From the NCBI GenBank assembly GCA_900618425.1, contig UZAN01039794.1, positions 35,180 to 99,179 on the forward strand: DNA of 64,000 nt. The letters run 5' to 3'. Of the stretch, positions 11,490 through 56,980 are shown one piece after another. The position numbers were made by a program, and so were the translations under genes. The DNA is from Echinostoma caproni (taxonomy: Eukaryota; Platyhelminthes; Trematoda; Plagiorchiida; Echinostomatidae). The number at the start of each line of letters is the position of its first letter. Position 1 is the first letter of the stretch. Below the pieces are notes generated by a model, which worked only from the letters and a program-made list of their open reading frames with translations, did not search any database and had not been told where the DNA came from.

Positions 11490-11700
11490 GATATATCTGG
11501 AAGAGAACCCGGATGACAAAATATTGAAAGTTGGTTCTCGTATCTCGGGTGAACTGAATTCCATTTCGTCTGTTCACCGAGCTTGGCAACTTGATGCAAA
11601 CGTTTACTCAACAGCCGAGGTGACATCATCGGTGTTTGTAAATTTTGCAAACAAATTGTCAAGTCTGGCGAACAGGCGAAAAAGAAAACTCGGGTGTTGT
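11490..11700 (-). mobile_element. Penelope-like terminal segment, family A, decayed hammerhead
   Basis: This segment matches the arms of the inverted repeat at 55 kb (shared blocks: TTGGTTCTCGTA, GAGCTTGGCAA, GCAAACGTTT). On the minus strand it contains CCGATGA (11632 to 11626, ancestral CTGATGA), a stem II region beginning TGTCAC, then GTAAACG at 11607-11601 where GAAACG is expected. The plus strand also shows an internal inverted repeat: GAGCTTGGCAACTTG near 11579 against GCAAACAAATTGTCAAG near 11647. Hammerhead cores are known in terminal repeats of Penelope-like elements; here the core is mutated. Confidence 0.6.
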
Positions 11701-12420
11701 AATTACCGAGGTTATTTCTGATTGCCTCAGATGTCCCCAATATGTAGGGAATACCAATGGATGCCAGTCAGTCTGCTGGACCCTTACTTTCCGTGGTTGT
11801 TTTAGGTTTGGTAAGCTCGTGTCGTACACACCGTTGTGGGTAGTTGTTGTCCTGGAGTACCCGGGTTCAGCGTCGCATTTGATCTTTGCGTGTTACCTCT
11901 TCGTTATAGAGGTTTTCGACTCTGCTTGCTAGTGACGAGATAAGTACACGTTTCATGCACTGTGGATGTGCAGAATCAAAGTCCAAATATCTGTCTGAGT
12001 GGGTCGGTTTTCTATGAATGCTTGTTTGAAATGGATGATTGATTTTTACGAGACAATCTATTAAGTTAATGAATCTTTTTGAATTCTCAGTTTCCATCGT
12101 GAATGTTATCGAGTTACACTGATTGTTCAGATAATGAAGAAAATCTGTCGTTTGATCTGATTTGATGACTGCGAAAGAACCATCAACATATCTGATGTAT
12201 AGACGCGGAGGTTCCTAAGTGCAGTGAGCGCTTTTTATTCTTTAGAGTGCATAAAAAATTGGCAACAATTGGTGATACAGAAGAAACCATCGCAACACCA
12301 TCAGTCCGTTTGTACAATGTGTATTTGAACGTAAAATATGTGCATAGCTTTACACCAATAATGATTTCATGTGAGGTTAATAAACAACGTTCTATTAACG
12401 ATGCGTCAGAGACCAATATG
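11700..12420 (-). mobile_element. Penelope-like element, reverse transcriptase fragment
   Basis: Reading the minus strand from 12416, the frame shows TDGVAMVSSVSPIVANFLC, the Penelope counterpart of the TDGVAMGSP-type block. After a frameshift it continues RLYIRYVDGSFAV, where the catalytic YVDD reads YVDG (12193 to 12179). Then come SIHRKPTHSDRYLDF and SAHPQCMKRVL, diagnostic of the Penelope-like RT palm and thumb. A decayed linker (IPYIWGTSEAIRNNLG) reaches about 11700 and then stops abruptly at the terminal segment, with no GIY-YIG domain between. The copy is 5'-truncated near 12480, catalytically dead, and lacks the endonuclease. The family call is secure; the exact clade is unknown. Confidence 0.85.
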
Positions 12421-12479
12421 GAGCGTAAGACATCTAAACTGTTTCTACTGGAAACATTCGCGTTGTTTTCTGTCGTCGC

Positions 12480-13110
12480 GAAATAATTGAACCGGGTAGA
12501 TGTAAGTTTTTTATACTTTAATTCTTTACAGTACTGTCAGTTTTTCTAGTAGAACTAGCAGCTGCCTGGCCTAATATTTCGCAAATTATCTCTATGTGCT
12601 GTATACTCACATGCTAACACCGACAGGAAAGTTTGACCTTTGCATGATCAATGTAATTCCAAAAAATATATGAAATATATCAAAAGTTCCCCAAGTTACA
12701 TAGTAGTATGTATCGGAACCATAGCGCAATTGTAAGGGGCGATTGGCAATTCTGACCTGCATTTTCCATCAGTTCTGACGTTGGGAAAAATTGAGAGCAC
12801 ATTTTTCGATCGTCTTTTGTCTGACAAACTGAAAATACCCGATTGCGTGACAATCCAATGATGGCGTCATGGAAAGGGAAAAAATCCAAAAAGGAAACAG
12901 CTCACTTCAACCAAATGTGCGTCAACACAGTATTTCAAAATAGGTGCTGTCGGAATTTCTGGTACAAAATCAAACTTCTGTCTACCGTCTCTGAATAACT
13001 CTTGCGACTCACAGGAGCTTAACAGATCATTCAAGCGATTTCGCCTGTGGTAACCCTACTAAAATCCAAGTGCATCTTTCTCTCAGTATCAACGAAGCGA
13101 ATGTTTCTTT
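12480..13110. other. No recognisable gene
   Basis: AT-rich sequence between the Penelope RT copy and a possible exon. Nothing recognised. Confidence 0.35.
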
Positions 13111-14393: not shown

Positions 14394-15095
14394 TCACCAG
14401 TGTTTCCTTGGATAGTGATAGATAGGTTCCAGATCTGTATGTTTATTTATACTGTCCGTTCTGGAGTGTTTTGCTTCGATGAATTCCTGTATAGAATTGG
14501 TGGTTCTTCTGCCAATTAGTCTTGCGTTGTCCAGGTCGAAGACGTGATTCTCAGCATCCATGTGGATTGAGAGTTTTGATTTCTCGTGTCTTCTGACCAC
14601 CAGTGTGTTCGTAGGGTCGTGTCTTGATCTTTTTCCTGGTGTATCCCACGTAGTATTTGTTGCAGTCTCGGCACTTTATTTGTATACAACGTTTGAGGAA
14701 TCTTCCTTTGGCAGTTGATAGGATAGCCCTCAATGTCACTGTTGTTTTGTGTGCAACCAAAATTCCTGATGGTTGTAATAATCTAGATGTCATTTTCGAG
14801 ATTCCTTGTATCTATGGAAGTGTTGTTTGTTTAATCGTTGGTCGTTCTTCTGACTGTGCATTTGAGGCTTCTCCTGGGGCATAACTTGTTGTCCTCTCCT
14901 TGAGTGTCGTGGAACAAAATTCCGTAGGAATACTTTACGAAACACCTAGAAAAAGGTGGGTTTCCTCTACTTTTTGAAGCTGAACATTGTTGTAGTGCGT
15001 GTTTGCCCGTTTGAGAAGTCGTTGTACGCATCTTTTCTTGTGTGCCAGAGGGTGGTTGCTTTGTAAGCAACCAACATGCGCATCCCGAGCTACAA
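14394..15095 (-). mobile_element. Penelope-like element, thumb, linker and GIY-YIG endonuclease
   Basis: Minus strand, from high to low coordinates: a thumb segment (SNHPLAHKKRCVQRLLKRA near 15080-15010), a decayed stretch, the linker (LPxIQGISKMTSRLLQPSG; GILVAHKTTVTLRAILS), then CIQIKCRDCNKYYVGYTRKK and KTRPYEH, the GIY-YIG-type nuclease with its upstream Cys pair. After a frameshift comes HMDAENHVFDLDNARLIG, and the ORF ends near 14394. The glycine-tyrosine motif reads YYVGYT, typical of Penelope nucleases. The copy is 5'-truncated within the RT thumb and has at least two frameshifts and stops. It is not the missing part of the RT copy at 12 kb, because it lies upstream of it on the same strand. 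Confidence 0.85.
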
Positions 15096-39600: not shown

Positions 39601-40380
39601 CAAATGTTTTAATTTCCGGCAAAATGAAACTAGTGATACAAAAAAGTGAAGTAAACATAGAACAAAAAGTATGGTACACACTGTAAACCTGTTTCTCTGC
39701 ATAATCAAGCAATCTGTTCAACTAAGGATAGTTCACGCAATCCAACTCGGGCATAGAACGTAAGCTGACTATGAATGGACAGTAGATCAGGCTGTTTTCC
39801 CCTATTTATTGCAGGGACAATACACGACTATGTTCCGTCGTTCTGTCGAGAAGAAACAAACTCATTTATTTGAGCAGCTTGACGTTTCTTATTCTTCTAT
39901 TTAATGGTTGATAATTTTGCCTAACGGCCGAATTTCCCGGAGAAAGCAAAAAGTAAACTTAATTGTGTTGATTGGCCATTATGATCGGAAACCAAATCCC
40001 ATTTTAGAACAGAGTTAGTGGGTAACAAATCACTAATGGTTTGATCGAAATTCAGCACGTGACACACACACCGAAGTAACGCACATCCAGACCTCGCTCA
40101 GAGGCCCCCGGGACATCTGCTGAACTGTCCCGTAAGCATTAGTTACTCCTCGTTGAACACTATGCCACATATAAATGTCACTTCTCATGTCCATCAGTTA
40201 GGGACAGAAACAAGTCACGCTGCGTGAATTAAATGGAATCCTTTTAGGAGACGACAAACGGAAATCACCTAGTTGAACAGATCATTGCTGGATGAACTGA
40301 TTACAGGATATATGTTTTCTTATGTTAATATTTTTAAATTAATCACGAGAGAGTGCTTCAAATGTGATATGAAATACGAC
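36700..40380. other. No recognisable gene
   Basis: AT-rich DNA with short ORFs. A possible 41-bp intron-like gap between 39074 and 39114 (GTATTT...CTCCAG) was examined, but the flanking frames do not join. Confidence 0.3.
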
Positions 40381-40706
40381 GTTGACAAAAACAACAACTG
40401 CTGCCGTTACTCTACACCCTAGTGGTGAAGTAATAACTTTGGTTACCGAAAGGATAGAAAAGTGAATCTGCACGGAAGGCACTGCTCCTGCATATGTATA
40501 TTCGTCACAATAACCTTGTTTGCAACGCCGAGTGACCATTGGATAGACAGCTCTTTCAGAGCCAGTCCAATGAAGAATCAATGCTATGATTCGATGTTTT
40601 GTAAGTGTGTTAGATGCTACTAACCGCAACAAACGTGACCTGATGGTCTTGGTGGAATATTTGACAATAAGTAGTATGTGAATGACTGGACAAAATTTCC
40701 CTGGAA

Positions 40707-40749
40707 GCACACGACCGGTTTCGCGGTTCTTGCCGCTCATCAGGCATGC
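40707..40749 (-). ncRNA. Hammerhead ribozyme, type I, apparently intact
   Basis: Minus strand 5' to 3': GCATGC (40749-40744) is stem I; CTGATGA (40743-40737) is the first core box; GCGG, loop CAAGAA and CCGC make a perfect 4-bp stem II; GAA follows; ACC/GGT is a self-complementary stem III (40720-40714); C at 40713 is the cleavage-site base (GTC); GTGTGC (40712-40707) closes stem I with six pairs, two of them G-U. All invariant bases (CUGAUGA, GAA, A-U closing stem III, UH) are present. The stem III has no loop, so efficient cleavage is expected in dimers, as in satellite and retrozyme hammerheads. Activity is inferred, not shown. Confidence 0.85.
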
Positions 40750-40846
40750 GTATCCGGTAATATTTTGTCAGTTCATTCATTTGCTTGTACCCAGGAAGTG
40801 TATTTTCGTCACAATAACCTTGTTTGCAACGCCTGGTGACCATTGA

Positions 40847-41318
40847 NNNNNNNNNNNNNNNNNNNNNNNNNNNNNNNNNNNNNNNNNNNNNNNNNNNNNN
40901 NNNNNNNNNNNNNNNNNNNNNNNNNNNNNNNNNNNNNNNNNNNNNNNNNNNNNNNNNNNNNNNNNNNNNNNNNNNNNNNNNNNNNNNNNNNNNNNNNNNN
41001 NNNNNNNNNNNNNNNNNNNNNNNNNNNNNNNNNNNNNNNNNNNNNNNNNNNNNNNNNNNNNNNNNNNNNNNNNNNNNNNNNNNNNNNNNNNNNNNNNNNN
41101 NNNNNNNNNNNNNNNNNNNNNNNNNNNNNNNNNNNNNNNNNNNNNNNNNNNNNNNNNNNNNNNNNNNNNNNNNNNNNNNNNNNNNNNNNNNNNNNNNNNN
41201 NNNNNNNNNNNNNNNNNNNNNNNNNNNNNNNNNNNNNNNNNNNNNNNNNNNNNNNNNNNNNNNNNNNNNNNNNNNNNNNNNNNNNNNNNNNNNNNNNNNN
41301 NNNNNNNNNNNNNNNNNN
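40847..41318. other. Assembly gap (472 N)
   Basis: The gap begins and ends inside units of the tandem array. The distance between equal unit positions across it (492 bp) is not a multiple of 304, so the N length is an estimate. Open frames running through the N block are artefacts. Confidence 0.95.
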
Positions 41319-41379
41319 CAACGCCTGGTGACCATTGAATAAACAGCTCTTTCAGAGCCAGTCCATATATATATATATA

Positions 41380-56040: not shown

Positions 56041-56980
56041 AATACCAAGCATTAGCGGATCCAATAGATGTAAAACGTTGGTTTCCACAGGGATCTGTGC
56101 TGGGCCAACGTTTTTTCGTTGCCTTATTGATGATCCTCCAGAAGTCCGCGGACCACAAACTCTGGCGTTTGCAGCCGATGCCAAAATATGAAGGACAATA
56201 ACAAATCCGGATTGTTCATTTGATCTCCAGAACGCCTTTGACGAAGCCCAAACATGGTCTGTCTCAAATGATAGGACATTTAACTTTACCAAAAGCAATA
56301 TAATACCACTACGTCACAATGTTCGTTATTCCTACACCCTCGGAAACAAAACTCTGCCTCGTGCTCCACCCGAGAAGGATCTGGGATCAGTTATTTGTAC
56401 AGACTTCAGTTACTCCACAAACTGTTCCAGGTCATCTTCCAGGGCTGGATAAATGTGTTTTTGGATCGTTTGATCCGGCTTTATTTCCGCGTCCTACAAC
56501 TGTTGGTGGAATACTCGTCTCAATATCGCCAAATAAGAAGTGATATGATCTTACTGTATCGGATTTTCCAACAGCCCAATCATCCATGTAGATCTCTTTT
56601 GGTTCTATCAACCAATGTTCATTTCAGAGGATATCCACTAAATTTGGCAATCCAAAAGAGCCGTCTCGACTGCCAACGCTATTCGTTTGCTGTCAGGGTG
56701 TGCAGCACATGGAACTCGCCCCCCCCCCATAGGTGGTCTGTGCGCCAACATTAGGCGGCAGCTTGATGGTGCTCTGGCAAATATTATGTTTCAACACCCA
56801 ACTACATAATATATTCTCCTGTGCACCCCACAAACATTTCGTTACTCTTAGGTACATGGACTAACATTAATTTTCGAATCATGTTCCGAACCCCAATTGT
56901 AAACACCCTATTGGATTGGATAAGCGAAGTCTTTATAAGTTCCTCCCATAAAAGAAAAATNTGAATTTGAATTTGATAAA
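56041..56980 (+). mobile_element. CR1-like LINE 3' end, broken reverse transcriptase
   Basis: It begins in the RT with FPQGSVLGQRFFVAL, then after frame changes TLAFAADAKI, where the Y/F-A-D-D site reads FAAD (56166-56177). It continues YTLGNKTLPRAPPEKDLGS, and later FRGYPLNLAIQKSRLDCQRY and FAVRVCSTWNSPP, the usual C-terminal block of this LINE group. The 3' end carries a TGAATT tail (56961-56975), a simple-repeat 3' end as found in many LINEs. It starts within a few bases of the inverted-repeat arm that ends at 56037. Stops and frameshifts make it inactive. One N lies at 56961. Confidence 0.83.

Follow-up and report, generated by a model that had tools for sequence, protein, structure and literature searches.

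A likely non-LTR retrozyme of Echinostoma caproni, probably inserted by target-primed reverse transcription

On the minus strand of the window, the 64,000-nucleotide stretch of Echinostoma caproni DNA analysed here, a hammerhead-like sequence lies within a repeat unit of about 300 nt. The locus raises two questions: what kind of element carries this ribozyme, and how do its copies enter the host genome? We consider it likely that the element is a non-LTR retrozyme of the metazoan type, inserted by target-primed reverse transcription (TPRT), probably by means of a Penelope-like enzyme. Coordinates within the window are collected in Table 1.

Table 1 Features of the window, by position, with strand and basis
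Feature	Position	Strand	Remarks
Broken Penelope-like reverse transcriptase (RT) fragment, two overlapping open frames	11867..12536	-	assignment presumed from motifs; no Pfam match
GIY-YIG endonuclease-like fragment	14554..14811	-	Pfam PF01541, E 0.0027, 18.4 of 22.6 bits, below cut-off
Retroelement stretch before the gap: 301-nt near-full unit (40501-40801) and 45 nt of the next	40501..40846	-	
Motif TTATTGTGA just upstream of 3' end site A	40505..40513	-	second copy at 40809-40817
Site B (unit 130-145)	40657..40672	-	3' end in many other copies; motif altered, no end here
Type I hammerhead ribozyme with outer stem I	40690..40761	-	Rfam Hammerhead_HH9 match below gathering score
Predicted self-cleavage site	40712..40713	-	presumed position, from the hammerhead consensus
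Palindromic stem III ACCGGT, without a hairpin loop of its own	40714..40719	-	Rfam alignment and structural scan
Stem II GCGG/CCGC, loop CAAGAA	40723..40736	-	Rfam alignment and structural scan
Hammerhead core CTGATGA	40737..40743	-	most other copies CTGACGA (variable base N7)
N run, 472 N, probably an assembly artefact	40847..41318	.	flanks overlap by 20 identical bases
Element remainder (unit 279-233), 5' end of the insertion, then TA repeat	41319..41365	-	

The ribozyme and the repeat unit in the window

The Rfam family Hammerhead_HH9 matched the element with 40.5 bits (E 1.3e-8 in 1,061 bases searched), below its gathering score of 52, and no Rfam family reached its gathering score anywhere in the window. 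Over the core span 40743-40713 (-) every core base is present, together with GAA and ACCGGT, C17 at 40713 and a stem I of six pairs. This bears out the first-pass annotation, which had described a minus-strand hammerhead with all invariant bases, a perfect stem II, a palindromic stem III and a 6-bp stem I. UAC beside stem I aligned to HH9, a feature bearing on the predicted loop-loop contacts between helices I and II. A lenient structural scan found one hammerhead in the window; as 9 of 40 Markov resamples also yielded one site each (mean 0.225), the scan is weak alone, and the HH9 match together with the hundreds of related copies in the genome is the stronger evidence. The exact ribozyme pattern gave 0 matches in viral contigs.

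The palindromic stem III, without a hairpin loop of its own, resembles the axolotl form described in PMC7229834, in which one pair and a palindromic tetraloop cap make up helix III and activity is better as a dimer; by this analogy, the ribozyme in the window probably acts as a dimer. In a nearest-neighbour fold, which leaves tertiary contacts aside, a double hammerhead reached -32.1 kcal/mol versus -46.4 kcal/mol for two separate monomers in their optimal folds. The energy model thus favours a non-catalytic hairpin over the catalytic form, which counts against the retrozyme reading.

Direct repeat comparison confirmed the 304-bp period reported earlier: 47 nt recur at 94% at a distance of 304 nt (40495/40799), and a third 47-nt piece beyond the gap agrees at 91%. 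Tandem Repeats Finder reported no array at the position of the element. The unit length lies within the ~170-400 bp of the direct tandem repeats of metazoan non-LTR retrozymes. The GC content of the unit is 43.1% (0.431); in such retrozymes the value is below 45-50%, LTR, PBS and PPT are absent, and circular RNA is abundant.

The 20 bases before the gap (40827-40846) are identical to the 20 bases after it (41319-41338). Both flanks carry T at plus-strand position 40834 (unit 272), a variant found in 1 of 59 other copies, and A at 40846 (unit 260), found in 3 of 56 other copies; the gap-flank pieces differ from copy 1 at 3 of 20 positions. Given the 20 identical bases and the two shared rare variants, one and the same piece of DNA probably stands on both sides of the gap, which makes the N run a probable assembly artefact; the element would then measure ~373 nt, or about 1.23 units. 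The suggestion that the true array probably exceeds the assembled one finds no support in these overlapping flanks, nor does that of a long tandem array, the longest arm among the sampled loci being 1.85 units and the gap probably artefactual. The element in the window may nevertheless be a tandem longer than 1.23 units.

Copies in the host genome and their ends

The host assembly searched (G000) comprises 426.5 Mb in 12,689 contigs. A 31-base ribozyme pattern with up to three mismatches occurred at 694 places, compared with 0 for a reversed-pattern control, and a search with the unit gave at least 72 matches, with 40 of 2295 first-look candidates scored. Sixty loci were analysed, the window and 59 others, in two samples that are both non-random, being selected by unit similarity and by ribozyme match, respectively. 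Sample 1 consists of the window and 39 other contigs from the unit search, whose query begins at end A (defined below), and sample 2 of 20 places outside the window, the first of the ribozyme-pattern list, with 0-1 mismatches in the ribozyme. The inserts sampled are those large enough to hold the ribozyme.

Among the 48 complete hammerheads of sample 1, the core was kept in 30, and core and stems together in 26. The first-pass annotation had held that copies of the unit in other places lacking the conserved core would speak against the element; the outcome is mixed, with the core intact in 30 of 48 complete hammerheads and many copies broken, as expected if intact sources were inserted and their copies then decayed. 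Core sites outside CpG differed by 0.044 in sample 1, versus 0.075 elsewhere (P 0.049), which indicates weak protection. C predominates at the variable position N7, T accounting for 14 of 76. In sample 2, 18 of the 20 loci matched HH9 at E <= 0.01, every one of them below the gathering score.

The 3' ends of the inserted arms, in ribozyme sense, cluster at two sites of the unit. For arms longer than 40 nt, 74 of 85 ends across the 60 loci fell at A (unit 296-304 or 1-4, about 301) or B (unit 130-149), or, for samples 1 and 2 respectively, 54 of 62 and 20 of 23; these bins, set post hoc, cover 33 of 304 positions, and the ends, derived from BLAST, are approximate. Of the remaining 11 ends, several coincide with an N run, the end of a contig or a deletion. 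The 5' ends of arms at the 60 loci occupy variable positions. Arm lengths range from 0.09 to 1.85 units, exceeding one unit in 20 of 62 arms of sample 1 and 0 of 23 of sample 2, and none of the 60 loci held an array with two full units or more. A peak of arm length at about one unit was considered as proof of a circular template and rejected: it is absent from sample 2, and it is unreliable in sample 1, where the first stretch of the query, 349 bases long, favours that length.

In the majority unit, the motif TTATTRTGA occurs at 132-140, at B, and at 289-297, just before A, and nowhere else; the similarity of the two sites has a P value of 0.009 against random position pairs. The A end is sharp, and the B end is spread over ~20 nt: of 40 B ends, 31 lie at position 140 or beyond, behind the motif (16 of the 40 at 145), and 9 at 130-136, inside or before it. 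A B end followed by TA was found at 202 places in the genome (reversed control, 0). At A, the letter at unit 302 separates crossings from ends. It is A in all 41 internal crossings, 23 of which read exactly GACGAAAAT, versus T in 23 and A in 9 of the 34 arms that end there, and T fits a TA target following GACGAA. This contrast places the 3' end of the copy in the window (ribozyme sense, site A) at ~40501. The limits first proposed, 40498..41367, therefore hold to within a few bases, with 40498-40500 probably target and the right end near 41365.

Three arms stop at unit 86-89. Judged by their flanks, two of them (L030 and L045) resemble internal deletions; the third, a 48-nt piece at L016:2922-2969 (-) spanning unit 42-89 and the one such case among the 85 arms, breaks off precisely where cleavage is predicted, as a copy of cleaved linear RNA would. 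Some inserts may have been reverse transcribed from such RNA. A candidate AUAU helix joining the two reverse transcription start sites in a circular fold was also discarded, having disappeared when the internal junction replaced the terminal TA.

Target sites and the route of insertion

TA runs of at least 8 nt adjoin the A end in 22 of 33 cases, the B end in 15 of 40 and the 5' side of single-arm loci in 17 of 31, compared with 50 of 5000 background positions. Among 52 insertions with clean ends, 11 are free of TA repeat on both sides. Four of these 11 have target duplications of at least 7 nt (7, 12, 12 and 13 nt), where swapped flanks give an expectation of 0.1; the duplications are direct repeats at the outer borders, some of their bases overlapping the end of the element. 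The other seven have border repeats of 0-5 nt. Adjacent arms, counted with gaps of up to 120 nt and with short arms included, are arranged head-to-head in 24 of 25 inverted pairs and tail-to-tail in one; two pairs are in tandem, one of them spanning an N run. Where both ends of a head-to-head pair could be typed, one A and one B end were combined in 13 of 17 cases. In sample 2, a head-to-head pair was present at 3 of the 20 loci.

A preferred 3' end, a variable 5' end and target duplications together point to TPRT. Arms that extend across the predicted cleavage site imply that the template in those cases was not a linear cleaved monomer but a circle or an uncut multimer, and where two arms lie head-to-head with their 3' ends facing outwards, both target strands appear to have primed synthesis. 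In the mechanism we propose, the element would be a non-autonomous retroelement with a 304-nt unit and a type I hammerhead in it. Paired hammerheads would cut any transcript of more than one unit, after which circles would close, or the RNA would stay multimeric. To judge by the insertions, reverse transcription begins within the unit at A or B, each marked by TTATTRTGA, and is primed by target DNA that has been cut, in many cases within a TA repeat; synthesis then crosses the ribozyme cleavage site, in some copies for more than one lap of the unit, and halts at variable 5' points. In many copies both strands of the target were used, giving two cDNAs that meet head-to-head. The enzyme would be a Penelope-like RT bearing an endonuclease. 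We infer this enzyme, as well as a life cycle of cleavage and circles, from DNA sequence. Besides the energy model, several observations weigh against the proposal: the weak protection of core bases among copies, the absence of arms exceeding one unit from sample 2, which was selected for the ribozyme irrespective of arm length, the spread of the B ends, and the arm at L016 that breaks off at the predicted cleavage point.

The choice of a Penelope-like enzyme draws on the published insertion marks of Penelope-like elements (PLEs), on the many PLE-type RTs in the genome and on the RT and GIY-YIG-like fragments in the window. PLE copies are described as having head-to-head inverted pseudo-LTRs (pLTRs), partial tandems and an optional tail, as lying in AT-rich targets and as flanked either by duplications of 8-10 bp or by no duplication (PMC3846280), and the purified enzyme of an anole PLE is reported to start reverse transcription at two internal sites and to cleave and extend both strands (PMC11167929). 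The host genome contains at least 150 PLE-type RT matches (150 among those scored of 1912 candidates), found with a query assigned to PLEs by its motifs. The RT and GIY-YIG-like fragments in the window are probably pieces of different PLE copies. Protein searches with the PLE RT piece and with another frame gave no match, and a Pfam search of ten frames gave one weak match and nothing more. A frame at 56284-56754 (+), which we take to resemble the end of a LINE-type RT protein, had no match in Pfam or in the databases searched. Elsewhere, on contig G000:C8183, a PLE RT match at 11492-11818 lies ~700 bases from a retrozyme B-end junction at 12505-12540, a proximity that could be due to chance.

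These PLE sequences also allow a different reading, in which the unit is a PLE's own pLTR stripped of its coding part rather than an independent retrozyme. PLE pLTRs bear hammerheads and insert head-to-head (PMC7761336, PMC3846280, PMC11167929), PLE-type RT matches are numerous in the same genome, and the unit contains an open frame of 153 codons on the ribozyme strand (window 40339-40767 (-); P 0.006 versus shuffles), with a weak third-position excess (P 0.023), that enters its second lap in another frame. Against this, the start of the frame is not conserved, reading ACG in 25 of 35 copies and ATG in 4 of 35; its coding signal is weak, and the unit may be non-coding. In arms longer than one unit the units adjoin directly, with no RT or GIY-YIG frame between them, and a search of 67 loci with the RT fragments from the window, one PLE lineage as query and flanks of up to ~3 kb, retrieved only the two fragments themselves. 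Unlike in PLEs, no RT or endonuclease was found with the unit, and its helix III is fuller than in minimal PLE hammerheads, from which the non-conserved helix III bases present here are usually missing (PMC7761336). We regard a stripped pLTR as an unlikely origin of the unit.

The insertion marks could also belong to a SINE-like element that an ordinary LINE mobilises, with the TA repeats as enzyme-made tails and the hammerhead incidental. A constant 3' end, a variable 5' end and target duplications are marks of LINEs too, and the unit shows all three. Two 3' ends and mostly head-to-head pairs are unusual for LINEs, however, and here two 3' ends accompany 24 head-to-head arrangements among 25 inverted pairs. 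Moreover, the TA runs on the 5' side of 17 of 31 single-arm loci, and the 11 of 52 clean insertions that are TA-free on both sides, indicate that TA is mainly target, and movement by a LINE appears improbable. Satellite DNA spread through recombination or circular DNA with no RNA step would explain tandem units of 304 nt, but is very improbable, since the copies lie dispersed, hold less than two units, stop at discrete 3' positions, are truncated on the 5' side and can be flanked by target duplications.

Returning to TPRT of a retrozyme by a Penelope-like enzyme, we advance one version of it tentatively, as a serious possibility: that the enzyme uses a hammerhead-made circle as its template, with two motif-marked starts, reading of the healed junction and priming by both strands of a TA-rich break.

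Relation to known elements and significance

The element shares with the metazoan non-LTR retrozymes described by Cervera and de la Pena (2020, PMC7229834) a type I hammerhead, a unit of ~300 nt and a GC content below 45%, and with metazoan retrozymes in the same account a high copy number, duplications of more than 4 bp when present, and PLEs in the same genome. The initial identification of a retrozyme-like element with a type I hammerhead is accordingly backed by unit size, ribozyme type, GC content, copy number and the marks of retrotransposition. Two differences are apparent. Metazoan retrozymes are presented there as tandems, from dimers to large multimers, whereas the inserts at the 60 loci are shorter than two units; and the family in the window is often head-to-head, often at TA repeats, and has two 3' ends, a signature that does not feature in the available part of that account. 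Head-to-head or two-start retrozyme insertions were likewise absent from the titles and abstracts of the literature searched, subscription papers being mostly outside reach.

With endonuclease-bearing PLEs, as portrayed in PMC3846280 and PMC11167929, the family has in common head-to-head ends, partial tandems, an optional tail corresponding to two RT starts, AT-rich targets, duplications of 8-10 bp or none, and extension of both strands. Two points speak against a simple match. The two ends are ~145-160 nt apart here, versus 30-40 in PLEs, and one PLE 5' region of the host genome, L068 (G000:C434:62900-65500), had neither a hammerhead core nor a clear likeness to the unit. The RT starts of the anole PLE are adjacent and, as reported, not homologous to the cut DNA, whereas site B here terminates in AAATAT, a sequence that could base-pair with TA target DNA.

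Judging from their descriptions, the schistosome SMalpha and hammerhead W-elements (PMC8490949) are likewise SINE- or satellite-like and carry type I hammerheads, some of them active in vitro. The newt and axolotl hammerhead satellite, as covered in PMC7229834, has a unit of ~330-350 nt and a weak palindromic helix III as here; it differs from the element in the window in its unit and, presumably, in belonging to an unrelated host.

A 2020 review states that metazoan retrozyme repeats have no conserved motif from which an autonomous partner could be deduced (PMC7761336), and names PLEs and Terminons as likely partners, because these share the type I hammerhead and are found in the genomes that hold retrozymes. 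The copies of the element in the window still record the mode of insertion. Its family offers evidence from insertion junctions together with a candidate motif, TTATTRTGA, which makes a direct search for the partner in a single genome feasible. If a PLE enzyme does act on hammerhead circles, the machinery that mobilises animal retrozymes would be settled, and TTATTRTGA would be its recognition motif.
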